A stretch of DNA of 64,000 nucleotides from Sipunculus nudus. Lineage: Eukaryota > Annelida > Sipuncula > Golfingiida > Sipunculidae. Of this stretch, positions 3,282 through 33,481 are shown piece by piece. Position numbers and translations under genes: made by a program. The notes under the pieces were generated by a model. It saw only the letters and a list, made by a program, of their open reading frames with translations, did not search any database and was not told the DNA's origin. How positions within the stretch are numbered: the stretch's first letter is position 1; the number at the start of each line of letters is the position of its first letter. The DNA lies in the NCBI GenBank assembly GCA_026874595.1, contig CM049314.1:54855812-54919811 (forward strand). The letters run 5' to 3'.

Positions 3282-5132
3282 ATTTTTTAGCTCAGCTGAC
3301 TATAAGTCATCTGAGCAATAGTCGTGGTCCATTGTCCGCCCGCCAGTCCGTCTGTCCGTAGATGTGGCACTTTTTGAAACCGTAAGACCTAGGAATCCAA
3401 AATTCAGCATAATGTTAGATGTCCCCAACATCTCCTACCAAGCCGAAACCTGGGTCTTTGCGACTTCGTTCCTTTGAGAAATTAAGGAAATACCTCAATT
3501 TTTTATTAAAAACCTATTTTCACACTTCAGGACTGCCTAATATCAAAACCACTCATCTGTTTTTCCTCATATTTACCATAAATATTTCTCTATATAGTTC
3601 CTATGCACATGCCAGAAATTAAGTCTGTTAAATAAAAGTTATGGGCCCGAACATAGTGGACTTTGTAAAAAATCAGGAAAAATACTTATCACTTAACATG
3701 AACAAATTTGAAACTAGTGTCTATTTTCTCAAGTATATAACTATGTTTTATTAAGATGCAATTGTTTATCCAAAATTAGATCTGAATTTCATAATTTTTT
3801 AAGTTTAGCATAAAAATAAAATCAGTACCTTAAATTTTTCCCAAGTTTGACCATGGCACTTTTTTCCTGTAAGTACTATTGATTTAATTTTCACAGCATG
3901 TAAATATAAATATTTAATTTGTGTAAATCTGAAATTTGAAAATAAAAGCTTGAAAATTAAGCTAGTTATTGATTTTGATTTTTTTCTTAAGGCTCTATTG
4001 TAGTCATTTGCTTTGATTACAGATTACAGATGCAGGTCACTGGAAGTCAGCTATGCCAGGATTTCTGATTTGTAACAGTCACTGGGGGAGATCCCCTGGT
4101 GTACAATTATACTCGCATCGCCACCCCAACCCCCCCCCCCCCCCCCCGGCAAACCCAACTCACCAAGTGTTATGCAGTAATTGTTTTCACTGTATCTCCT
4201 TAATTGTAATGTTGTTTCCACTCCGATATGCAAAAACTTTCCTTGAAAGAGTAATTCAAGGTGTAATCCAGAAGATGCAATATTGTGTAATGTAGCATTT
4301 TTAAAGAAATCAGTTTTCTTTTAAATGATTTTAACAAATATAATTGAACCCATTAGTATGCTTAAATTCACAAAATATGAAGTACAATTATGGATAAATA
4401 AAGACACAATCAAAATTTGTGGAATCTAAATCAAGTATTATTTTTAGATATTTATTGTTTTGCAGATTTATAAGATATATTTTTGTGGTAAAAAATAAAC
4501 GTGTATGCATGAAGTGGTGTTATCTGACACGATTGAGATTTATGATGATGCAATTGAGAATTATGAATAAACTTTTATATTCAGATATATATGTTATATT
4601 GGAAATGTATAGAAATATAAACTTAAATTAAAAAAAAAATTGATGTGATAAAAAAATGAGGATTTAATACAAACATTTGTTCATTATTTTCCTGCATCAG
4701 CAGAATTTGAGATCAGGCTTTGTATGCCCTGTTTTATGTTGTTAATTAGTTATATTTCAACTGTATACATTAAAAAATATACATTTATATTTAATAATAT
4801 ATATTATACAAAAAAAATAGATTTAATTGAACAAATGTGTAAACTACTGAAATGTAAACAGTTAATCAAAAAGCCATCTAATGATCATGGTAATAGTACA
4901 GATCATTTGTTCACAAACTGCTCACATGCTTCAGTTTCAGCATTAGGAAACACATGGTCAGGTCACAAAATATTATTTGCAACAATTTCTTGCTCATCAA
5001 TACAAACCAATCATATAAAGCAACAATGGCCTTTATTACCTCTTGTACACTTTATCTTCATTAGATATTATTTTAGACTTTTACCTTCAAGGTCAACTTC
5101 AGCTGAGCATAGTGACCCATGGGTCCCTTGTT
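3282..5132 (+). mobile_element. Modular hairpin-ended element C
   Basis: The element starts with TTTTTTAGCTCAGCTGACTA, a hairpin whose second arm is AGTCATCTGAGC, followed by a stretch rich in CCGTC/GTCCG units. It ends with CAGCTGAGC, about 6 bases, the palindrome GACCCATGGGTC and CCTTGTT. The interior is AT-rich, with a poly-C tract (4130-4147) and no real coding capacity. Its first 700 bases match, in reverse complement, the element at about 13.40-14.05 kb. Ends of this type recur at 6.78, 9.2, 12.4, 14.05, 21.8, 29.5 and 33.5 kb, so this is a dispersed family. The two terminal hairpins and the absence of an open reading frame suggest a non-autonomous element, perhaps Helitron/Helentron-like, but the class is inference. 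Confidence 0.6.
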
Positions 5133-6184
5133 TCGAATTTAACGTATTTTTTCTCTATTTTTGAGACCTTTAATGATGCGGTTGTCCGTTAACAGGGCAC
5201 ACATTGTAATTTCCCCTCAATACCGTCAATATTGTTTAAAATTAAGCTAAACAAACATAAGGTAAACAACATGGATATTTTAAGACCAGCTAGAGCCAAT
5301 CAGCTAGATAAAGCCAAACAATTTTATATCAGGTTCATTTAAACAAATAAGACCAAAGGACATCGAAAACGTCTGGGTGTGTGTGTTGATCTTATTCACC
5401 ACACTGATAACAATAACGCATACTTGGATTTGTACAAGCTGTGCTTCTCAAGTGCTACTCTTGCTCTTTGGTCGTAGGCTGAGTCACGTGCTGTATAGTG
5501 CACAAAAGATAGAAGAATAGGATATAGAGCCTAGGTGAAGTAACCAAGAACACTAAATCACTGGAACAAACCGCCAGGAGAAAATACTATCACCACTCTA
5601 AAAGCAAGATTAAATATTCCCAGACACTGAATTTCTGCTATGACGATAATAGTAAGAAATAATTTTAAAAAGATGAACATATCAATCATGTTAACATAAA
5701 GTTCTATTACAGGAAAGCTTCATCTGCAGGTAACGAATAATAAATTGAAAGAGATTATTCTCGCTGTTATTTCTAAAAAAAAAATCTCCAAATTGGACAT
5801 TCAATATATATATATATATATATATATACTCTTTGCCCAGCGGGAATGCCCCCCCCCCCCCATGTGAGCATTGTTTAAGGCTGATTTCTCTCTGTTCAGG
5901 CTAAATATACAACATTTACATGCAATTTACTATGATCCAGGCTTTATACCAGCGGATTTATGATAGCCTGACTGCATATCATCTGATATTTTTTTACCTA
6001 CTTTAAACTCGTGTTCGCATGTAAAGAATACACAAACTTTCCAGATATAACACGTATACAATGCATACACACGTGTTTCAGGCAACGTCGTATATGAACA
6101 AGGACACTGTCTAAGAACACCCTGCCAAGGCCTACACAAGATGAGATCAGGTGTTGGTATGTGAATTTCTAACTTAAAGCTGTC
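5133..6184. other. Intergenic, repeat fragments
   Basis: Directly after the element's tail, 5184-5215 (GTCCGTTAACAGGGCACACA and following bases) resembles the region just inside a head of the same family, suggesting a truncated neighbouring copy. A (TA)n tract lies at 5803-5828 and a 13-base C run at 5849-5861. The minus-strand open frame at 5930-6412 lies mostly in repeat sequence. No gene was recognised. Confidence 0.5.
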
Positions 6185-6270
6185 TTTATGTGCTTGTGTA
6201 TGCGTATATGCGTGGAAAATCGCTCTTATGATTTTGTATTTTGGCGTGTCCATGTAAGTACAGAGGCTAT
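6185..6270. repeat. Fragment related to the 52-kb MITE
   Basis: GCGTATATGCGTG followed by AAAATCGCTCTTATGATTTT and a TGTCCATGT stretch matches the left part of the inverted-repeat element at 51973-52225. Only one arm is present, so this copy is truncated. Confidence 0.45.
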
Positions 6271-6284
6271 GGCCCATTTTTAAC

Positions 6285-6775
6285 CAGAATTGCTCAAATT
6301 TTGCAGAAAGCATGAAACTTTGCACAGGGATACTACTGCCCCTAGGCATCTTTAAAAAAGACCCCCAAAATTCAAGCCCGCTTGATTTCGAAATGGTCGC
6401 CAAAATATGCATTTTCCGTATCTGTGTTACTACTTTTCAATCAGGCAGACTTAAAAGCATATCCGGTCAGCACAAAAAGAGGGACAAATGCTGGGGAGGA
6501 GGTTATTCTATCATATTAAGTGCTCTTAATTAGAAAAAATGCTTGATCAAAGTACCAAGGTGGTACCTTTCTGTAAAATATGAGCTTGTTTCCATGGCAA
6601 CCTTCGTTAATTATGCAATCACATTATTATTTTCAACGTATTTAAATAAATGGCCACAAAGAATTGCTCAAATTTTTAGGAAAGCATGAAACTTTGCACA
6701 TGGATATTACTGCACCTAGGCGTCTTAAAAAATTAGACCCCAAAAATTCGTGCCCTCTGTTGGCCGCCACCTTGA
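6285..6775 (+). repeat. Duplicated repeat units (CATGAAACTTTGCACA type)
   Basis: Two related segments lie about 365 bases apart. One is about 6285-6420 and the other about 6655-6775. Both read TTGCTCAAATTTT, then GAAAGCATGAAACTTTGCACA, GGATA(C/T)TACTGC and a cytosine-rich AC...CCCAAAATTC segment. Between them, about 6530-6630 matches the arms of the inverted-repeat unit at 10540-12441 (GGTACC and CAACCTTCGTTAATTATGCA). No coding function is seen. Confidence 0.5.
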
Positions 6776-9202
6776 TTTTTAGCTTAGCTGACTTTCAGTC
6801 ATGCTGGGCTATAGCGATGGGTCTTTGTCCGGCGTCCTTCCGTCTGTCCGTCTGGCCGTCCGGCCGGCCGTCCGTCCGTTAGCAGGACACAAATTGTAAC
6901 CATAGAGGGCTAGGACCATAAACCCTATGCAGTCTTAGAGGTTCTAAAAAGATCTCCTTGCAAACCTGAAATTATGTCACTGCGACCTATATTCTCGAAG
7001 TTATCGGATGTGTTTGCACCCCTCCGAAATAATTCTTTTAGCCAAAATTTTCATCCCAAACCTTCCATCTTTCACATACAGCTCACCTACCAACAGGGGA
7101 AGAACCATAATTATTTTGAGGTCACAAGGTCAAAGGTCAAGGTAACAGAACAAACTTCTTTGAAAAGCCTTAGGATGCATTTTAAGCCAAACCTTTCATC
7201 CCAATTCTTTGATCTTTCACATTTGGCTCACCTACTAAGTGGGAGAAGAATCCTATAGATGTTGAGGTCACAAGGTCAAAGGTCAGGGTCACAGGATCCC
7301 CTTCTTTGAAAAGGTTGTGGACACATTTCAAGCTAGACCTTTCATTCCAAACCTTAAAGCACTGATATCGCTTCTCTGCCAACAGGGGAAAAGACCTGTT
7401 TTGAGGTCAAAGGTCAAGTTCACAGCACCCTCTTCTTGCGTGGAGTCAATTTAAGCAAACTTTTCAATCTATACTTTCCATCTGTCATATATGGCTTACC
7501 TACCAATAGGAGAAGAAGCCTATTGATGTTGAGTTCAAAAGGTCAAAGGTCAAGGTCACAATATTGTTCTAAATGCTTGTGAACATATTTCAAGTGAAAT
7601 TGTTCAACCCAAACCTTCAGTCTTTCACATATGCCACATCTATGCATCACTGAATTTGATTCAAACTTCATATTTATGGGTCTTTTTGCATGAAGAAATA
7701 ACTAATTGATTTTGAGGTCAGCTGGTCAGGAGGTTAAAGGTTGCAGGTCTAAGTTATTCACTCATTGGTTGCCAAGTAATTACACCCGGCCAGATGTAAG
7801 TGGTTAGTAGAAAGAATCCAGTTGATATGTGGGCAAAAGGCCAAGGTCATAGGTCAGGGATGTTCACAATAACTTATTTTGTAGACCATCTCTATTTTTC
7901 TTGTTTTCTTGTATATATAAACATATGGCACTCACAACTGGTACATCTCACTATGTGCCCATAATTGTTAGTGACACTTGTGATATATGACTTCCTTTTG
8001 TATCAGCTCATGGAGTGATAAGGATATATCATTAGTGCATAACAAAAACACTGTTGCCGGAATGCTTTGCCCAGGCATTAAGACTATGAGAGTTAAGTGT
8101 TAAGTTTAGCTACTGATTTATAAAATGATGGGAACATTTTGTAGTTTATATCATGGAATCATAGCAATAAACTTAGTTTTCTAGATATCTGAATATTATT
8201 ATACAAATCATCAGATATACCAGCAAGTGTTTGTTCTGATAATATGTGGGTCTGTACCTGGATTTAGGATGGCTTTATTTGATTACAAGACTCTTAGTGA
8301 TGCTTTCTGCATTTCTTTTCTTTTAGGTTTTGCAGTTTACCTACCATGCTGACCCAAATGAATAGCAAGCTGATAATTAAAACAAATTGGACTTGCACTT
8401 TTTACATTTGCATGTTCATTAATCTGATATGAGAGCTCTCCAACCTGATCATGCCTTTTGAATTGTTTTGGCTATTCATAACTGTTACATTCTTTGAAGC
8501 AATTGCTACAAGTTTAGTGTCTTATTGGATGATGTGTGACTTGTCAGAAAACCATTATGTCTGCCAGGTAGCCATTTTAGAAATCCTTTTGCCAGGACAG
8601 TTTCTGTGATTTTGTTATGATGTTTGGTCCCTTTTAGAGGATGTTTGGTGTTCAATTTCCGACCTGTCAGAAATCCAATATGGCCACCAGGACGCCATCT
8701 TTAAATTCCTTAAGAACATATTATCTCAAGAACTATTAAAGTGAATGCAGTAGGATGTATATTAATGTAATCTTGCATTGGGTCAAATATTTCTTAATAA
8801 ATATGACCATCATTTATGAAAGCTCAGTACAGTTGGCTTGTATTGAATAAGAATTTATATGGAAGCACCCGTTTCACAATAATTCTTGCATGGATTTCCT
8901 TGATCTTTTGCTATATTTTGATCTTATATGTGGCCTGTGTGGTATTCCTTTTGAGACTGACAGGTATCGAGCAAGCTGTGGGATTAGTTCCTGATAGCTC
9001 AACAACCATACATTTTGCCTCAGACCATCATTCACTATGTTTTAACCAGACATATATGATAAGAATTTATGGCAATGTAGAAAGTTTAAACAAAATTGGC
9101 ATATAGGTTCTGCAACAATTTTACTAGAAGTTGTGAATTGCAGCCCATGATGTCGCAGGTCATGCTTGGCAGCTGAGCGTCATGACCCATGGGTCACTTG
9201 TT
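6776..9202 (+). mobile_element. Modular hairpin-ended element A with AGGTCA arrays
   Basis: The head is TTTTTAGCTTAGCTGACTTT at 6776, followed by a CCGTCC-rich stretch (6830-6880) and the family's head module (CACAAATTGTAAC, then CCTTGCAAACCTGAAAT). From about 7050 it has four consecutive monomers of about 140 bases. Each contains AGGTCA half-sites in tandem (near 7126, 7268, 7404 and 7540). The tail is CAGCTGAGC, six bases, GACCCATGGGTC, then ACTTGTT, ending at 9202. About 900 bases of the 5' part match the copy at 12.44-13.33 kb. The open frames inside are repeat translations. If all of 7640-9170 belongs to one insertion the element is about 2.4 kb; a nested insertion in that part cannot be excluded. 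Confidence 0.55.
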
Positions 9203-10539
9203 GTAATCATTGTGGTTATATAATTGATATGTTAAAGTTGCATGTTAAACATTTTACCGGCTTCTGTGATACAGGCAGCGCATTGGATTCAACAGAGTAC
9301 AGGTCGTCAGTTCGAGTATTAGCCGAGCGGCCGTGAGATAAGGAAAGACTCCCTCCCTCGGTATAGAAAAAAATTAATCACAGGGCTGTTCGTTGATATC
9401 CTTAACTTATGAATTAGATTGCAATTAACTGTGGATACATTAATAATTTAATTGCTAGGGGGCAAAGATATATAAAAAAGAAAATTAATTTTCGATAACT
9501 GGGAAAAGGAATAGGTAAAATATAAGAGATGTTACTGCTCAACAGGCGGGCGGGCGGCCCCCCTCTGGATCCGCCACTCGATAAATAACAAACAAATCCA
9601 ATGTACAAACCTAACTAATTATATAAAAATATAGCAATAATACATTCTACAGTTATGCAAACTCCAGCATCACGTGAGACACAGAGACAAATTACTATAC
9701 AAATAATCAATCATACAAGATCAATGAGTTTCTACTTACGATCTGTAAGCGTCCAAATAAAACAATACAAAGTCCATTCAAACAAATAAAGTCTTTCCTC
9801 TTGGTTGAGCTTCTTCTATAAATTCCTTTAATGCATATGTAACAAATATCGTTCAAGTTCACTTTTGCTTCACTTAATTGTCACTTCCCATAATATCAAA
9901 GTAGAGTTTTAGTGTACACCGAATCTTCATGGCTAGCCACGCTGTTATGCATAACCCTTATGTTAAGTCTATTGACCTGGGCTGATCAATGTTTCATATA
10001 AAAATAGCACAAGGTTCCACTATATCATCATACTTCTTCTTATTCCCAGGTGTTTTACAAAGTCCGGTATTCCATTTTGATGTCTGAGTAACTTGCTGTC
10101 ACCGGTATTATTTTATTTTATGCTTGTCTGGAACCACCTTCTCTCTTTAACAATCTGGCAAGTACTGAAGACACTCATGCTGGCCCAGACACTTCAAGGC
10201 TACACCCACTTGTCCATTGTCTGACCTGGCTGAACTTGGACAGAGAGCACTGTCCCAGGGCAAGTTTAACCCTTGACTCTGTGTCTCCGCTGTACACGTA
10301 AACAAAGCTTGCTGGCTGGTATACACATTTGTCACATTGAAGAACCCTATATATAACATGCTGATCTTGACCCAAGGTCAACTATACAAGAAGTACCATG
10401 TCTCTTAAAGTAATAACAAATTAATGATTTTCTTTTATAACACCTTAGTATATTAAAAAGATGATCTCTTAAAAGACCTTAAATATTACAAATAAAGGAT
10501 TTCTTGACATTAATGTATCATGTTTTGGGCTCTTAATTA
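9203..10539. other. Intergenic, SINE-like fragment and transposon end
   Basis: About 9258-9365 has a tRNA-like look (CAGTTCGAGTATT as a possible B box) and may be a decayed SINE. At 9555-9588 the reverse complement of GTGGCGGATCCAGAGGGGGG resembles a hAT-type terminus. A minus-strand open frame at 10147-10381 has a few cysteines (CLGQHECLQYLPDC at its end) but no domain I recognise. Otherwise nothing is supported. Confidence 0.45.
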
Positions 10540-12441
10540 GAAAAATGCTTGATGAAAGTACCAAAGTGGTACCATTGTGTAAAATATGAGCTGGTTTCAA
10601 TGGCAACCTTCGTTAATTATGCAATCATATTTTTTTCGTTCAGATAGCATCGTTCGGATTAGGTATGTATGCTGTATGCTCCAACATAAAATAAAGGATT
10701 TTGTTTTTTCTTTCGTAGAGCAAATTTTCGTTCGGACGTTAAATTCGTTCTGGTTTCATCTGGTGTGAAACCGCCATAATTCGAGTGGGTGGTTCGCATG
10801 CGAGCGTTTCTAGATTATGAACATGTTCAAGAGTCTGACGCAATCAGTTACGACCACCCCAGGGTTCGCAAGAAGCCCAGCGATTTCTCGTGCAAGGTGG
10901 TCTGTGGTGAAAAGTTTCAAACAAATCTGACATCAAATATGGCCACAGGGCTGCCATTTTGAACTGGCTATCGCATATAACTTATTGAGGAACTTATGGC
11001 CCAATCATTTCTGTTTGTCTCCAACTCTATTTTAATGAATAAATATATTTTTAACCCTGTCAACAGGCAAACAAAATGGATATGTCAAGAAACAAATTAT
11101 TGCAATGCTCATTGTAATTTATAAATCCGTTTCTTTAATTACATATATCAGTCATAAGTTGTGAGATACATCTGATATCTTCCGGTAATTTACGTGAAGA
11201 AACTACTGTTGCAGGTTCTGAACAATTATTGATTACTAATAGATATGCAAATTTATATCAAGATATGTAAATTTATTCACACGACCTTTCACTGGATTAC
11301 AATGGTACGTTGCTGAAGTTACTGGGATAATGAAATCCGAGCATTTTAAACATACAGGTCAAAACTGTAGTTAACCTCAATATATTTTGCATAAATTTGC
11401 ATACAACAAGATACAGTTTTAAAGTAGTGAAGCTGTACCTCGAGAGATATCACCTCAATTTCCTGCATTTTAGTGCTTAATCTAAGAGTTTTATGTAAAA
11501 TATTACATAAGATACCTATGGCCATTTTTTATATTATCAGCATTATTGCCAGATTAAACTTGTTTGCCATGGAAACGAGATTGCATATTATATTACTTAA
11601 TCTAGTACCACTGTCACGAATATGTCTATTGTACAGATGAATGTCTTGAAAACTTTATATACCAGCTGCCCTTGTTGAGGGAATGACATGTACACGGTGA
11701 ACAACGGGAATATAACGGTTTTATTAAAATATTGTACATCAATGCAGAAAATATGCAGATTTCCTTCATAATATTGAAACTTTCCTTTAAAATGTCACTG
11801 CATTTGTCATCTTCAGCCAACAAATTAAAAAAAAAACTTTAATTGTGAAGAAATCTGGAAATACAATTGGTCTCATACGAATATCTTAACAGGACCAGTG
11901 TCAAGACGTAGAAAACTGGTATTATGATTTTCCACCATGCATATTCAATATTACTAATTTGCAAATACTAGATATGCAAATTATATCATAAATTTCATTT
12001 TCATATACCTGATCTTATAAAAAGGTTGATAGCAATTTTCAGTACCAGGGATCCCTGTGGCTGATAGACTAAATCGTCACCATTTTGACGGGGTCACTGT
12101 GTTGACCAGAATGAATTATATTACATCTTGTTATAATATATTATGTATAATTATTCAAATGTGCTTATTTTGTAAATTATTTAAGTAATTTCCAATGGGT
12201 ATGTTAACTACTTATGCAAATTTATGTTGTGTAAGAAAACATTTCATGTAACAAAATCCTCGCAAATTTTCTGCATTCTGTTGTTTATTTCAACTTCTTA
12301 TGTTAAATTTCAACAGAGCTATGGATATTTATTTAAATACCTTTATATAAATAACATGATTGCATAATTAACGAAGGTTGCTATGGAAACCAGCTGATAT
12401 TTTACACAATGTTATCACCCTGGTACTTTAATCAAGCAATT
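10540..12441. repeat. 1.9-kb unit with about 90-bp inverted terminal arms
   Basis: The left arm (about 10540-10627) reads AAAAATGCTTGAT, then GTACCA..GTGGTACC, TGTAAAATAT and CAACCTTCGTTAATTATGCA. The right arm (about 12356-12441) is its reverse complement at high similarity. The interior is AT-rich with several ATATGCAAAT and TTTGCAT strings and no gene. A solitary arm lies at about 6530-6630. The right arm abuts, and may share its last bases with, the head of the next element at 12437. This is consistent with a non-autonomous DNA transposon or with two copies of a short repeat in opposite orientation. Confidence 0.45.
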
Positions 12442-13335
12442 TTTAGCTCAGCTGACTTCCAGTCATGCTGTGCTATAGGGATGGGACTTTGTCCGTCGTC
12501 CTTCCGTAAGACCGTCCGGCCGGCCGGCCGTCCATTAGAAGAGCACAAATCGTAACTGAAATGGCTAGGATCATGAACCCTATGCAGTCGTAGAAGTTCT
12601 AAAAAGATCTCCTTGTAAACCTGAAATGAGGTCACTGCGACATATATTCTCCGAGTTACGGGGTGTGTTTGCACCCCCCAGAATTAACCCTTAAAAGCCA
12701 AAATTTTCATCCCAAACCTTCCATCTTTCACATACAGCTCACCTACCAACAAGGGAAGAACCATAATTATTTTGAGGTCACTAAGGTCAAAGGTCAAGGT
12801 CACAGGATACAACTTCTTTGTAAAGCTTGTGGATCCATTTTAAGCCACACCTTTCATCCCAATCCTTTGATCTTTCACATATGGCTTACCTACCAAGTGG
12901 GAGAAGAATCCAATATATTTTGAGGTCACAAGGTCAAAGGTCAAGGCCAGAGGATCCCCTTCTTTAGAAAGGTTGTGGACACATTTCAAGCTAGACTTTT
13001 TATTCCAAACCTTTCAGCACCGATATATCGCTTCTCTGCCAACAGGGGAAAAGACCTGTTGATTTTCAGGTTAAAGGTCAAGTTCACAGCACCCACTTCT
13101 TGCGTGGAGTCATTTTAAGGCAAACTTTTCAATTGATACCTTCCATCTGTCATATATGGCTTACCTACCAATAGGGGAAGAAACCTGTTTATGTTGAGTT
13201 CAAAAGGCCAGAGGTCAAGGTCACAATACTAACTTATTCAAAATGTTTGTGAACATATTTCAAGCTAAACTATTCATCCCAAACCTTCAGTCTTTCACAT
13301 ATGCCTCATCTATGCATCACTCTATTTGTGATTAC
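12437..13335 (+). mobile_element. Modular hairpin-ended element B, tail missing
   Basis: The head TTTTTAGCTCAGCTGACTTC (12437) and the following 900 bases match element A closely. That includes the CCGGCC/CCGTCC stretch, the head module and four AGGTCA monomers (near 12785, 12930, 13073 and 13206). Similarity stops near 13330, in the same monomer where element A continues. No tail is found before the next element, which runs in the opposite direction. Confidence 0.6.
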
Positions 13336-13399
13336 ATAACATCATCCACAACACACTGTTAAACTAGGCTGGCTGATGTGAATAATACTTGACATGGTG

Positions 13400-14055
13400 T
13401 CTCAAAACTTGAATAAAAGCTACTTTTTTTCAATCAATTCCTTTGAAAATGCAGATTTGAAAAGATTGAATCCTTATGAATACATGCTGTGAAAATTAAA
13501 TCAACAATGCGTACAAGGAAAAAAACGTGCCTTGGCCAAAGTTGGACAAAATTTAAGGCACTGATTTATTATTAATGCTAATAACTTAAAATGTTGGCAA
13601 AAATCAGATCTAATTTTGAGTACACAATTGAATCTTGATTAAATAAAGTTATATCCCTGAAAAAAGGCTCTAGCTTCAACAATTCTCATGTTAAATGGGT
13701 AAATATATTTCCTAATTTTTTACAAAGTGAATAATGTTTGGGCAGAAGAATATGTATATTAAAACTGATAAAAAAAGATCGGTGGTTTTGATATCAGGCA
13801 GACTTGAAGTGTAACAATGGGTCTTTAATGAAAAATTGAGGTTTTTCTTTAATATCTTGGGGAAGTAAGACCTAGTGACCCCATTTTTTGGTATGGTAGG
13901 AGATTTTGGGGACATCTTACTGTATGCAAAATCTTGGATTCGTAGGTCCAGTGGTTTGAAAACGTGCCCTGTTAACGGCCGGCCGGATGGACAACGGACA
14001 AAGGACCATGACTATAGCTCAGATGACTTACATTCAGCTGAGCTAAAATCTTTTC
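13400..14055 (-). mobile_element. Modular element D, tail missing
   Basis: Read on the minus strand, this begins at 14055 with the family head (TTTTAGCTCAGCTGAATGTA), a GTCCATCCGGCC stretch and CACGTTTTCAAACC. It then follows the interior of element C at 3.3-3.96 kb. The similarity ends near 13420. It lies back-to-front against element B, so the two heads face outwards and both tails are missing. Confidence 0.6.
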
Positions 14056-14953
14056 TTTAGTGGAATATTCTGTCAAATATTAAAATACACAATGTTCAAA
14101 AGTGTGCTTGACCACTATCATCGGTCTAAAAGCAGTATAAATATAGTTTACATTCTATGAAGTATGCCCATTACATTTAATTAAAAAAAAATTTTAATCG
14201 ATTTCATTAAAAAAATATGATTTAAATCAAATAAATCCAATTTTTTTTTAATAAAAACAATCAACAACCCTGAATATGAGAGCAACTAGGTGTCGCCCTA
14301 GACAAATATTGAGATATATCTCAGTACTCAGTTTATTTATTTGTTAAATACAAGTATAACAAATAGCTTCATTGTGCGACGTGCCCCTTATCTGGACTAT
14401 GAGCACATATATAAAGATCGCGCTAGTTGCATGAATAGCGTGTGTATCTAAATAAGTCAGGGGTGGTTTCGCATATTCCTCACTTATGCTAGACTGTTAA
14501 AAATTAATAATATATCAGTTTTTATAGAAACATCATAGGTGTACATTCGGCTGAATTTGCTATGAATTGGGAGGTGCTCTAATATCCGTACATCTAAATT
14601 AATTGTATTAGCAGTCATCTGTGCAAGTTACTCCTATTTTTATCTGGTTACTAGTAACAAAAGTTCAAAGACTAACCCATCTCAATCATTGGAATATTTC
14701 ATCATTTCTACATATTGTGTTTTGAAGTTTGCATTTGTTGGATGCATGAAAAGCATACCTTGTGAATGAACTTCATGAATGAACTAATATTAAGACATTT
14801 AATATAACATTTAGACAGAGCCGTTCAGAATAAGGGTCATACATGTACGAGGGATCATGTAAATAAAGGTGTAGGGTTTGCTTATATATATTATATTCTC
14901 GCTTGAATATTCATATCATATATTTCTGTTCTGTTTGCAAATAAATTAGGTGT
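14056..14953. other. AT-rich intergenic stretch upstream of the TRIM-like gene
   Basis: There is no open frame of interest and no strong repeat. The last bases before the ATG (CAAATAAATTAG at 14938-14949) could be a 3' splice site of a 5'-UTR intron. A TATA-like TATATATATTATATT string lies near 14884-14898. Neither can be confirmed. Confidence 0.4.
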
Positions 14954-15986
14954 ATGATGGCAACGGGAGGTAGTGATGAAAGCCACCTTTTCAATTGCCC
15001 AATCTGCTTTAACAAAAAGCAGAATCGGAATCCCCGAGGGCTTCCCTGTCAACATTCCTTCTGTATGGAATGCTTGATTTCCTGGCATCAAAGTCGTGTC
15101 AGTAAAAGGGGCGAGTTACCTGGGAACATAGAGTGTCCTGTGTGCCGACAGAGTTCGAAATTACCTTCAAACGGCATCGAAGGTCTTCCTAAAGATTTTA
15201 AGGTTAATGAAGCAGCGGAACTGATGGACAAACTTTCGGTACTTGGTCCATGTCTGTGCCAGGTATGTTCCAAAACAGGTGTTTCTAAACCTGTAGAAGC
15301 ACTATGTAATGACTGCTCCCGACGCTTCTGCGCCGAATGTGCAATAGAGCATACACAAAATAGGATATTCATGCGTCATTCACTGGTGCATGATTTGTGC
15401 AGAAGGCATGGTGCAGAAGCAAAATATGTTTGCCTTGATTGCTTTGAAAACCTCTGCAAGGATTGTGCAATCGGGCAGGTACATAAACATCACAGCATGT
15501 GCAGTGTAAAGGACAGTCATACAGAAATTTCTAATTTGCTGAGAAAACTGGTAGACGATAAAGAAAGGGAAGTGTCGTTTCAATTTTGCGTACTGCACAT
15601 CATGATTTTCGACGCAAAGGATACAAATGAAAAAAATCACAAAAGACTTTCTTAGGCAGTGGGAGGAAGAAAAAGCAAAATTGGATGATCATATGAAACA
15701 GCTTATACGAAGGCATGAGGAGCATCACAGTAAAGATATAGAAGACATCTTTCGCCCGTCCAGTGAAGAGTTCGGTCGTGCGTGTCTCTCCATTGATAAA
15801 GCGAAAACGTTAACATCAACAGGAAGATTCGATAACTTGTCTGATGTCAAAGCAGTATATACAGAGCTTAAGAGCGTTAAAGGGCCTGATATCCCTACAC
15901 ACTTTTTTACTTGTTCTCTGAACAACGATAAAACTTTAGTTACTGCAATAAAGAAGCGTACATATTTACATGCCGTTCACCAGTGA
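14954..15986 (+). pseudogene. TRIM-like RING/B-box gene with frameshift
   Basis: The frame opens at 14954 (MMATGGSDES) and encodes a C3HC4 RING (C15, C18, C32, H34, C37, C40, C61, C64; CPICF and CPVCRQ). A B-box1 follows at about residues 102-142 and a B-box2 at about 149-183 (RRHGAEAKYVCLDCFENLC). Such proteins are typically E3 ubiquitin ligases or scaffolds. After residue 207 the frame loses family character and stops at 15655. The coiled coil then resumes in another frame (15627-15986: DFLRQWEEEKAKLDDHMKQL), ending at VHQ without a B30.2 or NHL domain. The 60-90 bases between are too short for a normal intron. The break is therefore a pair of small indels: a decayed gene, or an assembly error in a C-terminally short TRIM. 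I favour a young pseudogene because three further broken copies follow on the same strand. Confidence 0.75.
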
Positions 15987-17835: not shown

Positions 17836-18265
17836 GGCCTACACCGACCCCCTTGGTATTAACAGTCAAAATCACCTTGTTTCGCCTAGGTCTTGCATTA
17901 GGTTACAGTTATATGTCCTTTTGTTGTACAATATGTGTATCTTTATAAGATCCCTTCGTTAAAATATACTTTTTTTGTAGATGTTAGCAATATTACACAT
18001 AGATTTTCTAAATGTTTTATTGTTTTTATTATTTACAAAGGTTTCGTTCATCATTTCGCATGGTTGTATACTGCGGTAAAGGAAGGCACTCTGAAAAAAT
18101 GTATAGATTTTGTCTTCCGAATTGTATATTCAGTAAATTAAATACTAAGAGAATTTTATTTAATGAAATAACACATAATGATTCCATCTGATTGTTCATT
18201 CTTGTACCTTAAAGGGTACATTACACTGCTATTAAAACAAGTAAAAGCGCATTCATACCAAATAT

Positions 18266-18557
18266 CAAATACTTTTTCTAAATGGTCATTACGGGGACAA
18301 CAGAAAGAAATATCATGTTAATATGCAAATTCACTTTGTTGATAATATTGTTATCTTTGAAATCATTGTAAAACAGTGTTTCTTGGGATTGTGTGGACGG
18401 GAAGAATACTTCAAATACTTTTTCTAAATGGTCATAACGGGGACAACAGAAAGAAATATCATGTTGAATATGCAAATTCACTTTGTTGATAATATTGTTA
18501 TCTTTGAAATCATTGTAAAACAGTGTTTCTTGGGATTGTGTGGACGGGAAGATTATT
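18266..18557. repeat. 146-bp tandem duplication
   Basis: CAAATACTTTTTCTAAATGG starts at 18266 and again at 18412, and the two 146-base copies are almost identical. They differ by a few substitutions and one indel in the first 80 bases. The duplication is non-coding and looks recent. Confidence 0.85.
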
Positions 18558-19398: not shown

Positions 19399-19468
<70 letters not shown>

Positions 19469-19853: not shown

Positions 19854-19894
<41 letters not shown>

Positions 19895-20339: not shown

Positions 20340-21802
20340 CATAAAAATTGTAACCGCTGACCGTAGAAGCCTATAACTCAATATCTAGGGAGTTCCATAA
20401 AAAAAATCTCCATAGAAACCTGAAATTGGGTTACCCCGACCTATATCCTCCGAGCTATGGGGCTTGTAAGTAACCCCAAAAATAATAAGAAAATTGATAC
20501 AAAACCTCCAATATCTTGATAATTAAAGCATGGATTGTCATGAATCTTGCCTTGAATATTGACCATGACTAGTTTTGTCATTACCGAAAAGTGGTGGCGC
20601 CACCTATATTTTTTCTTATTTTTACGAATATTTGTCTATTTTTTTTTACTATAAAATGACAACAATTATGTCACTTTCTCAGCTATGATTCCATCTAGTG
20701 TCCCAAAACCTGGTGTGTTTATTGATCACAAGTGGATGCCGTATAGTAATCACCCTGTCCAACCAAACTAATTTGTTTCCAGATGATAACTCCAGGTTGG
20801 ATTGACATATGGATTTCAAACATGACTTACACATGGCCCACCACTAAAGAAAGAACTTGTATGATTTTTGGGTCATGAGGTCAAAGGTCAAGGTCACAAG
20901 GCTCACTTATTTAAAAAGATTATGGCTGCATTTTAAGCAAGCTTTTCATCCCAATTTTTCCATCTTGCACATTTAGCTAAATTGCCAGTTCGGGGAGAGC
21001 ATAAATGTTTTTGGGGTCACAAGGTCAAAGGTCAAGGTCACATGGGCCATCTGTTCACAAGTTAGTTTTCAGATGATAACTCCAGTTTAGTTTGACATAT
21101 TGGTTTCAAACTTAACTTATGTATGGCTCACCACTGAAGTAAGAACACTGTCGATTTTAAGGACCAATGGTCAACGGTCAAGGTCACATGACCCATTTCT
21201 TCAAAAGGAATGTGTATGCATTTCAAGCCAAACTTTTCATCACAAACCTTCCATCTTCAATATATTACTCACATGCCAATAGGGGAAGATTCTTTTCGAT
21301 CTGGGGTCAAAGGTCACGGTCACAGGCCCATCCATTCACAAATTAGTTTATGGATGATAATTGTGCTTTGTCTAGACAGATTGGCTTCACACTTGATTTA
21401 TTAAGACCCACCACTTAAGTAGGAAACATTTTGATTTTCGGGGTCTGGAGGTCAAAGGTGAAGGTCACAGTAGCTACATCTTTAAAATGATTGTGGATGC
21501 ACTGTAAAACAAACTTTTTATCCCAAACTTCCCATCTTTCATAGATGGCTTACTTGCCCAAAGTGGAAGAAATCTGTAGATTTTGAGGTTACCTAGTCAG
21601 AGGTCAGGGTCACTGGAACCATTTTTTTTAAAAGATTGTTACAATAATCTAATTGCTGCAAGTTCAAGAATAACAAGTTCTCAGATTTTTTTGTCACAAG
21701 GTCATTGGTTAAGGTCACAGGACCGTCATTCTGAAAAATTTCTTTCAAAATATCCTTATTCACAAATTCAGCTGAGCGTTGAGACCTCTGGGTCCCTAGT
21801 TT
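20340..21802 (+). mobile_element. Modular element E, head truncated
   Basis: The copy begins inside the head module (AAAATTGTAACC at about 20344, then TCTCCATAGAAACCTGAAAT and CCTCCGAGCTATGGGG). It carries the palindrome GGTGGCGCCACC at about 20602, as in the array at 29.5-33.5 kb. From about 20870 it has six or seven AGGTCA monomers about 145 bases apart. The tail CAGCTGAGC, GACCTCTGGGTC, CCTAGTTT ends at about 21802. It joins both interior modules in one copy, which links the AGGTCA-type and GGTGGCGCCACC-type elements into one family. Confidence 0.6.
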
Positions 21803-21882
21803 ATATAATGTAAAAGAATGATAAAACAATATGGCATATATTCCGATTTTTATATCCTGACGTGAGCAACGTACTGAATAAC

Positions 21883-22396
21883 GTAATGGCGGACGAACAG
21901 AAAAAAGTCGATATTTCCGATGTTCAACACATTGTTATTCCAAAACAAACGGACAATTCATTTTCGGATCATGTTTTTGTTGAAGATTTATGTTGAAGAG
22001 CATGGAGCTGAAGTGGAATACATATGTTCTGACTGTTTTGAAAAACTTTGTGTTGACTCTGTAATGGCGGACGAACACCGGGATCATAACATGTTTAAAA
22101 GGATATATTAGTGCAGAGAAAATAACCACATGCTGCAGCGTGATGTGGATAAAAGAACAGCCGAATTAGACGAAATAAGCAAACTGATGGATAGAAAAAG
22201 CAAGACTATCAAATTCAGAAGCAAAAAAATAAGCAGAACCTTCTGGCTTTTTTGGGAAGAGCAGACGAAAAAATCGATTCGCACATAAAAGATTTGATAA
22301 TGGAACATGAAAAGCACCATTATTCCGAAATAGACATATTCTATAAACAGTTTGAACACAATGACACTAGCAAGAACTCTATACTTGGTACATAAT
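21883..22396 (+). pseudogene. TRIM-like relic (B-box2 and coiled coil)
   Basis: HGAEVEYICSDCFEKLCVD (from about 22000) is a B-box2 closely like residues 152-170 of the 15-kb copy. The frame stops at 22109-22111. Coiled-coil sequence continues in other frames as QRDVDKRTAELDEISKLMD and, after another shift, LGRADEKIDSHIKDLIMEHE, then KHHYSEIDIF, ending at 22396. There is no RING. The 17-base string GTAATGGCGGACGAACA occurs both at 21883-21899 and inside the B-box at 22061-22077. The modular element E ends only about 80 bases upstream and may have replaced the 5' half. Confidence 0.75.
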
Positions 22397-23664: not shown

Positions 23665-23870
23665 GGCCTGAGCTGTCGAGTGGCAAAAGGCTTGGCTCTG
23701 TCCGCTAGCATCCCGGATTTGATCCCTGGAATCATTAATGAGAATGGTTTTTAGTGGCCTGTCCAGACCTGTACAGACTACCAAACGCCGACATCCAAGC
23801 CATGGACAGTGCCTCGTATTGGTTATTATGGCTATAGTTGTACAATCCATGTTAAATAAATTAATTTTCT
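23665..23870 (+). repeat. Decayed tRNA-derived SINE-like sequence
   Basis: GAGCTGTCGAGTGGCAAAAG resembles a tRNA A-box region, and GGATTTGATCCC about 45 bases later resembles a B box (consensus GGTTCRANNCC). The body continues to about 23870. It is called on two promoter boxes only. Confidence 0.35.
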
Positions 23871-26130: not shown

Positions 26131-26880
26131 CCAGTGTCAAAGCTGCACTCAAGACCGTATTTCTAAACAGATGGACGTATGTTGTAACACATGCAGCCGC
26201 CGTCTATGTTGGAATTTCGTAACAGCACATTTAAACACAAGTGTTTTCTGATCATGTTCTGACTCACGATGTTGTCAGAGACACGCCGCAGAAATCAACT
26301 TCCTCTGTCTAGAATGATATTTAAAGCTCTGTGTTGACTGCGCCATGTCCACCGAGCATGCTAAACATGAGATGTGTCGATTACAAGGAGCAGAACAACA
26401 GATCCGCAGCAAACTCGAGCACTGCTACGGTGACACACAGGGAGACCTCAAGCTGGCCCAGGCAAAGATTGACTCAGAAGATGGAAAGTAAGGACGCTGT
26501 AGACACAATAACGAAGCATCTGCTGAAACAATGGGAAGGAGAAAAGACCAAGATGGATAGGCAAATACAGGGACTGATAGAGGTGCATGAGTATGACGTC
26601 CAATATAGGGAAGATGTATTTGCCCTGCAATGATATGATATAAGGGAACCCAGTGCCTGATCGACAAACTTTCAACAGTGCCGAGTGTGCAAGAACGGTT
26701 GACTGATGGCGTGTCAGTGTTCGCTTACCGGAATTCGCGTTGAAACGCTACAGAGCGCAACACTAAAATCTACACGAAGTACACAATGCTGTGCACAAGT
26801 ATGACGTCAGTTACTGCGATTGGTTCAAAGGTGACACTCCAGGAGATCATCGACTCGTATTTAACCTTTCAATGACCGAA
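26131..26880 (+). pseudogene. TRIM-like relic (B-box1, B-box2, coiled coil)
   Basis: A B-box1 piece (QCQSCTQDRISKQMDVCCNT, then CSRRLCW) starts near 26131. After stops, CQRHAAEINFLCLE and KLCVDCAMSTEHAKHEMCRL give B-box2. The coiled coil follows (QQIRSKLEHCYGDTQGDLKL), ends at a TAA near 26490, and resumes in a second frame (DTITKHLLKQWEGEKTKMDR). The region after 26640 reads CLIDKLSTVPSVQERLTDGV and then, in another frame, LHEVHNAVHKYDVSYCDWFK. That is the usual segment after the TRIM coiled coil. No RING was found upstream. At least three frame changes and several stops make this a clear pseudogene, older than the 15-kb copy. Confidence 0.8.
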
Positions 26881-26989
26881 TAATTAAAGTTGAAAAAATT
26901 GCTGGTTTTAAGTCCCCTCCCCAATATTTGGCTCAGAAGACTTTATAATTAAATTCCCAGTGGTAGCTTCCTGGGGACGCTACAGAGCA

Positions 26990-27195
26990 CACACATGATT
27001 TTTAGGTCGCCTGGGCCCGCCATACGCAGATTGCACTTAATCCGGTACCCAATGCTGGGTGGACATAAGCACACTTGTGGCTGAGATCCTGCCTAAGGGT
27101 CTTAACGAAAATGTGGGAGGCTACGGGATTCGAACCCATGACCGCTTGATCACAAATCCGGCATCTTTTTCATAACACCACCACGCTCCACAATT
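26990..27195 (-). repeat. tRNA-derived SINE
   Basis: On the minus strand the 5' part (from about 27193) is tRNA-like and contains a perfect B box in GGTTCGAATCCCGTAGCCTC. A non-tRNA body follows (CAGGATCTCAGCCACAAGTG, TGGGTACCGGATTAAGTGCA). I call it a SINE rather than a functional tRNA because the acceptor and anticodon arms cannot be folded convincingly and the body continues for about 110 bases. Confidence 0.6.
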
Positions 27196-29531
27196 GGAGT
27201 CACATCGCTGTGTGTCACTAAGTTGTACAAAACATCATCCTTATTAGCAAGCTTTATATCGGGTTTGTCATTTACTTATAATGTTCATGTAAAACAAATC
27301 AGAAGAAACTACCCAGTAGATGGACAAAAATTGAACACGGAAGTATAATTCAGGTGACGCTATTCGACAACTACTTTTTTATTATTCATGGCAATATTAA
27401 TTTGTTCGAGAGTCCAGTTTATTAGATAAACCAAAGGTCCCACTCATTATAACCTCCTTAGTTTCTCACCTATACCATTCCACTCACACATTCCCTTTTG
27501 CCCATTTCTTCGCGCTCGCTATTATTTCCCTTTAATTCTATTAATTTATTTCTTGTTTCCTATGGGATGACGTAGGACAAAGTCTGAGCTAATCGTACTG
27601 CCTGGTAACGACTTTTGCATTTTATGGTTATCGCTCAACATATTTAGGAAGGATTGAGAATCATTTAAGACTAGACATTCGCTTTCCAGAGTATAAACTG
27701 GCTCCAAGAGGGAAAACATTGAGATGACATTGACGAATTACATTAGAGCTTCCTTTTTCTTAACATATGTGGGCAAACGTATCTGGAACCAATATGGCCA
27801 GATCTATGTACGTTTGGCAACAATTATTTACACGGGTACTAATTGCAATCATACAATTTCTTTTGACCATCGAGAGAAATATGTTTCTATAACTTCAAAT
27901 ATGTTTAACGTCATATTTATCAATAACAAGGCATCCAGGACATGTGATTAAGTCAGAAATGTAGTTGTATAGTCGTACTTTATACAAATTATCTGTAACC
28001 TGGTGGTTAGAGCCGTTTCTTTATTTATTTTTAAAAGAAGGTCACGAAGATGTTTTTAATAAGCAGGATACACTGTAGCCATCTTATTTAATAATGACAT
28101 TATCAGCAATACATTTTTTCCGTTAGGCTTAAAGTTTTTAGGATTATGCTATTGTACATCTAATCGTGAACAATTGTATTATCATCATTAATTTTTAAAT
28201 ACCTTAAAATGTCTATAAGTGCGAATTCGATTATCTATAAAAATCAGTAAATACAATTATTTGGGGATTCCTACACAGTTTTTTTTTCTTTTTTAAAAGT
28301 ACATTTTATTTTAGAAATTCTTTGTGATGACGTTCATGTTAAGTATTGAAATGCCAGGCTTTGAATGGAGTTTGATAAACTGCAATAAATACAACACACT
28401 ATCAAGCTGATCTTTTATGCTTCAGCGTATTTGCACATGTTTGGTACATACTTGCAAGGTTACCTAAACAATACCGAACAATTAAGTTACTTGCACTTTA
28501 CCTGGTTTAGTTTAGATTTCAGACCAAATGTTGCCTTTTCATATAACTCCATCAAAATCCGAGGCGGCAAATGGGAAACTCATGCCGAATCAGTCACACA
28601 GCGTTAGGTATTATTACGCAGGAAGACCAAAATATGCTGCTTAACACATATGTAGCATTCCTATGAAGCTTTCTATATAGCTTTAGCATTGAACAGATAT
28701 GTTCATGCCAATCATCGGTAAACCTTTCAAGGATTCTGGCTTAAATCAAAGTAGGAATAGCCCAGTATCATAACGCTTAGTATGATCTTCATATAAAGTT
28801 AAGAGCTAGGCATTTAAACATGATGCATTTATATTTTCTTTCACTTTTCGGGTGTTAAATTAATCCAGGAGGCAAGAATTAATATGCTACCACACTTAAT
28901 TATTGTACAATATCTGAGTTTTACCGTAGCTCGTTTTTTTTGTAGTATCCTTCACCAAGTATTTTGATTGGATAACTGGAGAATTAATCGGCAAGTGAAG
29001 GGAAATCTGAGCCGGAGATTTTGTTTCACAATTAAACCAATATTCACCTGTTCGAAACTTTCCTCGAGTGTCATCTCGCATACAACAGATTCGTGCAGCT
29101 CTGCTCTGCCTACCGTGGCTGTTCGTGTGACGTCATATTCCCAGCGTCATGTTGTTTTCTACCCATTGTGGCAAACATCTGCAGGTTAATTCTAACTTTA
29201 ACCTTTTAACTTTAACCTGTTCACTGCATTCGGTAAAGACATGTAATACAAAGATGGTAAGTATGATTCCTAAATGTGACAGTACAGGTAGATGTAGTCT
29301 AGAGTATCAATTCTAGAAACTGATCCGGTTTATACAGGCACCATGCCATAAGTGAAAATTACATTTCGTCTACTCGAATACGTCACCTAATGTGTGACAA
29401 CAGCCTGGGTTATGCCAGAGTAAAGTTACTAATGTATAAGGAAGAGAGATTAACTACAGATGTTTATCAATTTTAGCATCTGTTGCGCCTATCTAATATG
29501 AAGGTTGTTTGCCAAATCAGAATCGCTAAAT
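27196..29531. other. Intergenic, no gene recognised
   Basis: AT-rich sequence. An open frame of 75 codons at 27724-27951 has no recognisable domain. A CTTTAACCT string is repeated near 29196-29220. No microsatellite or repeat unit of note. Confidence 0.45.
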
Positions 29532-32500
29532 AACAAGTGACCCAGGGGTCATGACGCTCAGCTGACCAGGAAGACTTTGACAAAAGTAATTTTATCATCT
29601 GAATGTCAAATTTGAATGAAATACTTTTTCCAAACTTGACCTTTTGTATAAAATCATCCAATATTCATTGGGGTACTATGGAGCTCTGTAGCATGAAGGA
29701 TATGGGTAACAGACACCTATTTTCAAGGTTTACAAGATGAATTTTCAGGGGTCACCCAGCATGTCAAAAAATAAAATTCTAGGTCCAGTTATTATGATTT
29801 GTGCCCTGTTAACAAATCCAAATGTTTATTCTGGGGGGTATTTCAAAGCCGCATAGGATGAAGGATATGGGTAACAGAGATGTAATTTCAGGTGCACAAG
29901 GAGACTTTTCAGGGGCCTCCCAGCATATCAAGAAAGGAGATTCTAGGTCAAGTCATTATAATTTGTGCTCTGTTAACAGATGACCAAATCTTTATTCTGG
30001 GGAGTACTTCGGAGCCCCAGAGCATGAAGGATATGGGTAACAGGGACCTTATTTCGGGTTTCCATGTAAACCTTTTATGGGCTTCCCTGGAGGTGAGGAC
30101 AGAAGATTCTAGGTCCAGTCATTATGATTTGTGCCCTGTTAATATATGACCAAATCTTTATTCTGGGGGGTACTTCAGAGCCCCATAGCTCACAGAATAT
30201 GGGTAACAGGGACCTTATTCCGGGTTTCCATGTAGACCTTTTATGGGCTTCCCTGGAGGTGAGGACAGAAGATTCTAGGTCCAGTAATTATGATTTGTGC
30301 CCTGATTACAGATGACCAAATGTTTAAAGATCACAAAAGTAGAGAAAAAAAATCGTAAAAAATAAAAAAATATAGGTGGCGCCACCAATCTCCAGAAATT
30401 GATGAAACACTCCATGATCAATATCCATGCAAAGAATCATGGTGATTAATGCATTAGTTGTTCAGATACTTGAGCTTTTGTATAAAATTTTGCATTATTC
30501 TGGGGGGTACTTCAGAACCCCATAGCTCGAAGAATATAGGTCACAGTGACCTATTTTCAGGTTTACAAGGAGAATTTCCATAGACCTCCCAGGATTTCAA
30601 GTAAGAAGATTCCCGGTCTAGCTGTTACAATTTGTGCCCTGTTAACAGACAGACGCCTGGATGGCCGGACGGACGACGGACAAAAGGTGATCCCTACAGC
30701 TCAGATGACTTTCAGTCAGCTGAGCTAAAAATTGAAAAAATACAGGTGGCGCCACCAGAATGCAGAAACTGATGAAACATTTCATGATCAATATCCATGC
30801 AAAGAATCATGGTGATCAATATAATTATTGTTCAGATACTTGAGCTTTTGTATCAAATTTTCCATTATTCTGGGGGGTACTTCGGAGCCCCATAGCTCAG
30901 AGGTTATGGGTAACAGAGACCTAATTTCAAGTTTTCAAGGAAACTTTTCATGGGCCTCTCAGCATGTCAAGAGAGAAGATTCTAGGTCCAGTTGTTACGA
31001 TTTGTGCCATGTTAACAGATGACCGCATCTTATGAGGTCTCAAAAATAGAGAAAAAAATTCGTAAAAATAAAAAAAAATACAGGTGGCGCCACCATACTG
31101 CAGAAACTGATGACACATTCCATGATCAATATCCATGCAAAGAATCATGGTGATCACTGCAATAGTTGTTTAGATACTTGAGCTTTTGTATCAAATTGTC
31201 CATTATTCTGAGGGATACTTCAGATGACTTACAGTCAGCTGAGCTAAAAACACTTAATGGTCAATATCTATGCAAAGAATCATCATGATCTCCGTATTAG
31301 TTGTTCAGATACTTCAGCTTTTGTATCAAATTGTCCATTATTCTGATGGATACTCCAGAGTCCTAAAGCTTGAAGGATATGGGTAACAGAGACCTAATTT
31401 CAAGTTTCCACAGGCACTCTTCATGGGCCTCCTTGCATGACAAGAATGAAGTTTCTAGGTCCAGTTGTTGCAATTTGTACCCTCTTGATAGATAACATAG
31501 GTGGCGCCACCAGTCTGCAGGAACTGATGGAACATCTCATAATCAATATGTATGCCAAAAATCATGACCATCAGTGATGTAGTTATTGAGATATTGAAGT
31601 TTTTGTATGAAATTTTTGACTACTCTGGGGGGGTACTTTGGGGCCCCATAGCTCGAAGGATATGGGTAACAGAGACCTAATTTTGGTTTCCATGGAGACT
31701 TTTCATAGGTCTCTCAGTGTGTCGAGAATCAAGATTCTAGGTCCAGTCGTTATGATTTGTGCCACGTTAACAGATGACAGCATCCTTAAAGGTCTCAAAA
31801 ATAGAGGAAAAAAATCGTAAAAAATCAAACAATACAGGTGGCGCCACAAGTCTGCAGGAACTGATGGAACATTTCATAATCAATATGTATGCCAAAAATC
31901 ATGACCATCAGTGATGTAGTTATTGAGATATTGAAGTTTTTGTATGAAATTTTGACTACTCTGGGGGGGGGGGTACTTTGGGGCCCCATAGCTCGAAGGA
32001 TATGGTTAACAGAGACCTAATTTCTGGTTTCCAAGGATATTTTTCATGGACCTCTCAGTGTGTCAAGAATGAAGATTCTAGGTCCAGTTGTTACGATTTG
32101 TGCCATGCTAACAGATGACAGCATCCTTAAAGGTCTCAAAAATAGAGGAAAAAATCGTAAAAAATCGAACAATAAAGGTGGCACCACCAGTCTGCAGGAA
32201 GTGATGACACATCTCATGATCAATAGTTAATGAGATATTGAAGTTTTTGTATGAAATTTTTTACTTTTCTTGGGGGTACTTTGGGGCTCCATAGCTCGAA
32301 GAATATGGGTAACAGAGACCTAATTTCTGGTTTCCATGGAGACTTTTCATAGGTCTCTCAGTGAGTCAAGAATGAAGATTCTAGGTCCAGTCTTTATGAT
32401 TTGTGCCTTGTTAACAGATGTTTACATTTTGAAAGGTCTCAAAAATAGAGAAAAAAAATTTGTAAAAAATTGAACGATACAGGTGGCGCCACCAGTCTGC

Positions 32501-33481
32501 AGGAAGTGATGACACATCTCATGATCAATAGTTAATGAGATATTGAAGTTTTTGTATGAAATTTTTTACTTTTCTTGGGGGTACTTTGGGGCTCCATAGC
32601 TCGAAGAATATGGGTAACAGAGACCTAATTTCTAGTTTCCATGGAGACTTTTCATAGGTCTCTCAGTGAGTCAAGAATGAAGATTCTAGGTCCAGTCTTT
32701 ATGATTTGTGCCTTGTTAACAGATGTTTACATTTTGAAAGGTCTCAAAAATAGAGAAAAAAATTTGTAAAAAATTGAACGATACAGGTGGCGCCACCAGT
32801 CTGCAGGAAGTGATGGAACATCTCATGATCAATATGTATGACAAAAATCATGACCATCAGTCAAGTATTTAATGAGATATTGAAGTTTTTGTTTGAAATT
32901 TTTTACTTTTTTGGGTGGTAGTTTGGGGCCCCATAGCTGGAAGGATATGGGTAACAGAGACCTAATTTCTGGTTTCCATGGAGACTTTTCATAGGTCTCT
33001 CAGTGTGTCAGGAAAGAAGATTCTAAGTCCAGTTATTACGATTTGTGCCTTGTTAACAGATGTTCACATTTTTAAAGGTCTCAAAAATAGAGAAAAAAAT
33101 TCGTAAAAAATCGAAAAATTCAGGTGGCGCCATCAGTCTTCAGGAACTGATGGAACCTCTCATGATCAATATGTATGCCAAAAATCATGACCATCAGTCA
33201 AGTAGTTAATGAGATATTGAAGTTTTTGTATGAAATTTTGGACTTTTCTGGGGGGTACTTTGGGGCCCCATAGCTCGAAGGATATGGGTAACAGAGACCT
33301 AATTTCTGGTTTCCAAGGAGATTTTTCATGGACCTCCCAGGATGTCAAGTAAGAAGATTCCAGTTCTAGTGGTTACGATTTGTGCCTGGTTAACGGACAG
33401 ACGGACAGACAGACAGACAGACGGACGACGGACAAAGAGTGATCGCTATAGCTCAGCTGACTTTCAGTCAGCTGAGCTAAT
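29532..33481 (-). mobile_element. Modular hairpin-ended element F, tandem-unit array
   Basis: Read on the minus strand it starts at about 33481 with the hairpin AGCTCAGCTGAC-TGAAA-GTCAGCTGAGCT and a GTCCGTCTGTC stretch. It ends at 29532 with CAGCTGAGCGTCAT, GACCCCTGGGTC, ACTTGTT. The interior is an array of head-module units. About three units of 165 bases lie at 29.8-30.3 kb, then nine units of about 304-417 bases. These nine carry GGTGGCGCCACC or a near copy at 30375, 30745, 31083, 31500, 31837, 32177, 32482, 32786 and 33123. Partial heads recur inside (about 30665-30730 and 31222-31248), so older copies have been captured. It has no coding capacity. At about 3.95 kb it is the longest family member here. 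Confidence 0.65.
32221..32828. repeat. Recent 304-bp tandem duplication inside element F
   Basis: CAATAGTTAATGAGATATTG begins at 32222 and again at 32526. The two units of about 304 bases differ at only a few positions, whereas the neighbouring units are clearly more divergent. This suggests recent unequal exchange. Confidence 0.8.

Follow-up and report, generated by a model that had tools for sequence, protein, structure and literature searches.

A probable family of non-autonomous Helentron (HINE) elements with related ends and differing tandem-repeat interiors

The 64-kb window analyzed here (the whole stretch of DNA, 64,000 nucleotides) contains repeats that resemble one another at their ends and differ in between, which raises the question of what kind of element they represent. 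The existence of a repeat family was confirmed by comparison of the window with itself and by pattern counts, and the six loci found are very probably old copies of one non-autonomous Helentron (HINE) family. A preliminary description of this DNA had listed six copies or partial copies; the six loci and their membership in one family stand, but both ends are present in only three of the six (copies 1, 2, and 6, as follows).

Copy 1 (3285-5132, plus strand) has both ends and an AT-rich interior and interrupts a GGTGGCGCCACC monomer that belongs to this family. Copy 2 (6777-9202, plus strand) also has both ends, with AGGTCA monomers between them, and its two inverted repeats have drifted. Copy 3 (12441-13330, plus strand) consists of a head and four AGGTCA monomers, and the homology of its left flank stops at 12444. 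Copy 4 (13427-14048, minus strand) comprises a head, a GTCC stretch, and an AT-rich interior related to that of copy 1. At 12.44 and 14.05 kb (the latter on the minus strand) there is thus a head without a tail, and the 20.3 kb locus, copy 5 (20345-21801, plus strand), has a tail without a head, preceded by one GGTGGCGCCACC unit and then AGGTCA monomers. Copy 6 (29532-33482, minus strand) is compound, with one tail, three heads, and at least eight GGTGGCGCCACC-type sites. In the self-comparison, copy 2 aligns to copy 3 over 899 columns with 87% identity, and the "AT-rich" interior of copy 1 to that of copy 4 over 680 columns with 71%; these identities suggest that the copies are old.

The head is the most recurrent part of the family. 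The pattern TTTTAGCTCAGCTGAC, with up to three mismatches allowed, was found nine times in the window, whereas 100 shuffled sequences gave a mean of 0.38 and no shuffle reached nine. Seven of these matches are element heads (3285+, 6777+, 12441+, 14048-, 30730-, 31249-, and 33482-), and the two others (14012+ and 33446+) are the inner arms of the same hairpins. The hairpin head that had been proposed is borne out at all seven, which adopt a form close to AGCTCAGCTGACT-nnn-AGTCA(t)CTGAGCT, the weakest being that at 31249. The first 12 bases are identical in five of the seven heads, and every head is immediately preceded by TT. A GTCC-rich stretch, also part of the proposed architecture, lies behind six heads as judged by eye on the alignment, but is absent at 31249 (minus strand).

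The tail was said to be shared by all copies, which is true of only four of the six loci; where a tail exists, it invariably carries CAGCTGAGC, a palindrome at or close to GACCCATGGGTC (imperfect in two of the four), and CTTGTT or CTAGTT. Because CAGCTGAGC is the reverse complement of the head sequence GCTCAGCTG, the two ends carry matching subterminal inverted repeats (subTIRs), the 3′ one starting about 34-35 nt from the element end. Exact inverted matches between the ends measured 11 bp in copy 6 (equaled in 2 of 2000 shuffles) and 10 bp in copy 1 (3 of 2000), whereas a search of the ends of copy 2 for an exact inverted match of at least 8 bp found none. Of the three two-ended copies, two therefore have paired subTIRs, for which about 11-15 bp is expected in a HINE. 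Over their last 60 bp, the four tails share 59-75% identity. In the classification rule of Thomas et al. (PMC4067079), 11 bp of identical subTIR defines one family and 80% identity a subfamily; by this rule, applied to sequence, the copies would be one family by their subTIR and, with tails below 80%, would not be one subfamily.

How these elements entered the DNA can be read at copy 1. Its left flank (3209-3284, plus strand) is a fragment of a GGTGGCGCCACC monomer, and its right flank (5133-5210, plus strand) continues the same monomer, the target. When joined, the flanks matched the uninterrupted monomers of copy 6 with a best score of 140, compared to a maximum of 78 among 302 randomly joined pairs (of 400 drawn, those that touched regions of the family itself were discarded). 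The alignment runs through the junction in six of eight monomers, each with 1-4 gap positions no more than 8 nt away (Ts, and also G in two of them); one of the remaining two ends before the junction and the other 10 nt beyond it. The junction lies in a run of Ts, which makes the division of the Ts between the two sides arbitrary; apart from Ts there is no duplication at this site, the one two-sided empty site in the window. Copy 3 offers a one-sided site: its left flank resembles 6534-6651 and 10541-10635 up to 12443-12444, within the T-run with which the element starts. Insertion flush at a T, with no duplicated target, had been set beforehand as the test of Helentron-like movement; this is what was found at the two-sided site, and the one-sided site at 12444 agrees. 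A two-sided empty site inside the family itself is direct evidence of flush insertion into a T-run.

Dispersed repeats were also observed in this region. The segments 6503-6651, 10510-10635, and 12327-12444 are 86-88% identical between copies, and include the former landing site of copy 3; a second pair (6286-6382 and 6660-6758) has the same range of identity.

These data bear on two other explanations. One is that dispersed satellite fragments without fixed ends came together by chance. The satellite-like tandem interiors and the broken state of several copies would suit such an origin, but the ends recur, the empty site is precise, and the head pattern exceeds its expectation (9 against 0.38), so we regard it as scarcely credible. 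The other is that the copies are canonical Helitrons, which have TC...CTRR ends and insert between A and T. They would share with the present elements a palindrome near the 3′ end and the absence of a target duplication, yet the heads here are a T-run followed by AGCTC or AGCTT, the tails end in CTTGTT or CTAGTT, and the target is a T-run. The misfit with TC...CTRR that had been pointed out earlier is therefore real, and a canonical Helitron identity is highly improbable.

The family was also described as having no coding capacity, and this agrees with our results: the 135 open reading frames (ORFs) of at least 70 aa in the whole window gave matches to 12 Pfam families (E ≤ 0.01), none of them a Rep, helicase, or transposase family. 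The matches were mainly RING and B-box zinc fingers (TRIM-like) in the ORF at 14945-15652, with a B-box in one further ORF and single matches to Smim3 (3.4e-05) and a TMEM126-like family (0.0097). The longest stop-to-stop ORF is 236 aa, and the window is animal-like; the kinds of genes and repeats in it would fit a bivalve host. By eye, 26325-26630 resembles the TRIM-like ORF. No match was obtained in the window with Rfam (at gathering scores) or in a tRNA scan. Outside the window, five patterns gave no match each in viral contigs, the tail pattern gave none in genome contigs, and the segment 6776-7700 gave none in phages in distant mode; a literature search with the letters of the end sequences listed matches that were unrelated by title.

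Elements that encode no transposition domain and have an inverted repeat close to either end could also be cut-and-paste MITEs, which have terminal inverted repeats and are mobilized by a DDE transposase. However, the repeats here are subterminal, the ends are asymmetric (a hairpin at one and a separate palindrome at the other), and a target duplication is absent at copy 1. Furthermore, the Pearl elements of bivalves, at first called MITEs, were later re-filed as a non-autonomous Helentron, according to PMC7492417. We therefore consider a MITE origin very improbable. In the two sources concerned (PMC4067079, PMC7492417), the features that characterize a HINE are subTIRs, an inverted repeat in the head, a GTC-type microsatellite, a 3′ palindrome, a T-rich target without duplication, and no coding capacity, and it is this combination that leads us to the HINE assignment. 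The non-autonomous Helentron-like reading first suggested for the family is thereby supported, both by the published layout and by T-run insertion without duplication.

If the copies are HINEs, they would depend on an autonomous Helentron located elsewhere that supplies Rep, helicase, and endonuclease activities; a partner with these genes and the same ends was not found within the 64-kb window. Such an enzyme would nick at the element ends, starting at the T-flanked head, rolling-circle copying of one strand would run from there as far as the tail palindrome, and the copied strand would be pasted between Ts.

The interiors had been described as differing between copies. It is true that distinct tandem arrays lie between related ends, but copies 1-6 all retain an alignable segment of about 120 bp beyond the GTCC stretch, and copy 1 is related to copy 4 in its interior. 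The monomers of one module measure about 305-340 bp. The GGTGGCGCCACC monomers include the post-GTCC segment, so that the GGTGGCGCCACC array appears to be a duplicate of the left part of the element. The further statement that the 20.3 kb copy contains both special modules proved correct, with GGTGGCGCCACC at 20593 and AGGTCA monomers from 20870. Slippage during replication, or capture, might have generated the tandem interiors while the ends stayed fixed. Tandem arrays were additionally seen outside the HINE copies at 47950-48186 (49-bp units), 18265-18552 (two 147-bp units, 98% matched), and 56075-56217 (22-bp units).

Copy 6 departs from the simple plan. On the minus strand, it has a head at 33482 and a single tail at 29532-29566, and two internal heads lie between them: one at 30715-30731 with a GTCC stretch behind it, and one at 31226-31249 that is only a hairpin. 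The latter sits between two 103 bp pieces (31122-31224 and 31257-31359) that are 88% identical. The extra heads could have come from tandem or aborted rolling-circle rounds or from later rearrangement. The form with three heads and one tail fits tandem rounds, but it may instead have originated by nested insertion followed by deletion, or by template switching.

The AGGTCA monomers raise a second question, namely, whether their conserved core is peculiar to this family. AGGTCA occurs 75 times in the whole window on both strands, compared to 27.6 expected, and in the AGGTCA stretches of copies 2, 3, and 5 it occurs 39 times on the plus strand and never on the minus strand; the cores lie at 7119-7560, 12776-13225, and 20870-21711. 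Fifteen core-like matches (up to nine mismatches in 29) contain or overlap 34 of the 39 occurrences; in copy 2, for example, four 29-bp matches start at 7119, 7265, 7396, and 7532. The spacing is 131-147 bp, except for a last interval of 105 bp in copy 5. The core common to the 15 matches is AGGTCAAAGGTCAAGGTCACA, which we read as a DR1 with the extended half-site TCAAGGTCA behind it, each a known type of nuclear-receptor arrangement.

A 21-column core was the best-conserved part of 14 monomers (0.935, compared to 0.707 outside the 29-column core), a figure that is biased because the monomers were cut at the core matches, of which 14 of 15 were used and that at 21691 was left out. The 21-column core was the top window in all four sets, and the 29-column version ranked first to fourth of about 147 positions. 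Selection on the AGGTCA core at the level of the host was considered and is unsupported, as copies 2 and 3 differ at 7 of 84 positions in the core and at 81 of 790 elsewhere. A different motif, the estrogen-response-element-like inverted repeat AGGTCAnnnTGACCT, was considered as a feature common to the family and was found at seven sites in the window with up to two mismatches (2.1 expected); the single exact site is at 30538, and of the five sites within elements, one is in the copy 1 tail and another in an AGGTCA core.

An exact scan for the 21-mer core in 257 billion bases of genome contigs, on both strands, returned five contigs (L001-L005), compared to about 0.1 estimated by chance. L003 has one core site in a gene-dense Cryobacterium contig, which is likely a chance match, and L004 has one site, at the contig edge. 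L001 and L002 belong to a Bacteroidetes MAG, and L005 to a symbiont record of Bathymodiolus brooksi. Their longest ORFs are 144, 125, and 171 aa, respectively, and we infer that these bacterial MAG or symbiont records hold repeat DNA of an animal host. L001 is HINE-like with other ends: it has an 11-bp exact inverted repeat (1 of 2000 shuffles), the palindrome GTACCTTTCAGGTAC, and eight cores. L002 is a relative of L001 with the same tail palindrome and is counted in the L001 family; an exact inverted match of at least 8 bp and an exact head stem of at least 7 bp were looked for in L002, and neither was found. L005 is likewise HINE-like, and its ends form a third set, comprising a 10-bp inverted repeat (125 of 2000 shuffles, with a control at 8 bp only) and the palindrome GTTTTAGGTATCTAAAAC. 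Its two cores, 158 bp apart, are antisense to the head, whereas those of L001 and L002 are sense.

Since the core was the search key, its identity in the contig matches holds by construction, whereas the additional cores and the HINE-like ends are independent of the key. The comparison covers the window family and two further families. Between these three families, the spacers separating the cores match at or near the shuffle level (z of -1.6 to 2.4), whereas within families z is 20.8 to 148. All six spacer comparisons between the window and L001 or L002 were slightly above zero (z of 1.3 to 2.4), and to judge from these alignments there may be a weak, old relationship. Separately, AGGTCAnnnTGACCT was observed beside the L001 element at five sites with up to one mismatch (none in 50 Markov sequences) and beside the L002 element at four sites; the coordinates are 77-237 and 3231-3285 in L001, 200-254 and 3223-3268 in L002, and 6958-6996, 12613-12651, and 30538-30552 in the window. 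The segment 61-99 of L001 is 87% identical over 39 bp to the window segment behind the GTCC stretch.

The shared core might go back to common descent in which almost all other sequence was lost, to convergent expansion of the hexamer, or to selection on the element. Going further, HINEs of different families in different animals might have kept, or repeatedly acquired, a nuclear-receptor-like site (DR1 plus TCAAGGTCA) in each nucleosome-length monomer, with the array being functional in the transposon and seeding receptor sites across bivalve genomes. We think this unlikely; because the core served as the search key, a function for it can be offered only as a hypothesis. Were it true, a functional array might serve germline activity or chromatin opening, and bivalve Helentrons would be mobile receptor-site arrays, comparable to the DR2 and HNF4 sites that PMC1785376 and PMC3252374 report for Alu repeats. 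Among the literature matches listed, none by title reported an AGGTCA core in bivalve Helentrons or satellites, with subscription literature mostly outside the coverage.

The HINE family described here is new, whereas its design is ordinary and already published. HINE/DINE-1 elements, as described by Thomas et al. (2014, PMC4067079), have subTIRs, a 3′ palindrome, and a T-rich target that is left unmodified, with tandem repeats in some copies, and the window copies resemble them in each respect; the 3′ subTIR at about 34-35 nt from the end is slightly nearer than the 38-60 bp given there for the mite. The closest published counterpart in layout is Cg_HINE of Crassostrea gigas (Vojvoda Zeljko et al. 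2020, PMC7492417), for which that article describes a 5′ subTIR with an inverted repeat and a GTCY/GTCC/GTCK microsatellite (GTCC-type in several elements), a 3′ subTIR with a palindrome, a TT target without target-site duplication, and satellite-like monomers in 13 clusters of 138-181 bp, one of them of 147 bp. In the same account, Cg_HINE_3 and _6 have related ends and unrelated arrays, and some Cg_HINEs have two arrays, so that swapped interiors are already known from the oyster; the Cg_HINEs could be related to no autonomous partner there. By this published description, rather than by sequence, the window family is like Cg_HINE in layout, microsatellite, T target, and swapped arrays, and differs from it in having a module with monomers of about 305-340 bp and one locus with three heads and one tail. 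It is likewise comparable, again by description, to the Pearl elements of bivalves (CvA and CvE), which are portrayed in PMC7492417, PMC11136912, and PMC5139131 as modular with a central array. As HINEs, the window copies extend the pattern known from bivalves of transposons that bear satellite arrays.
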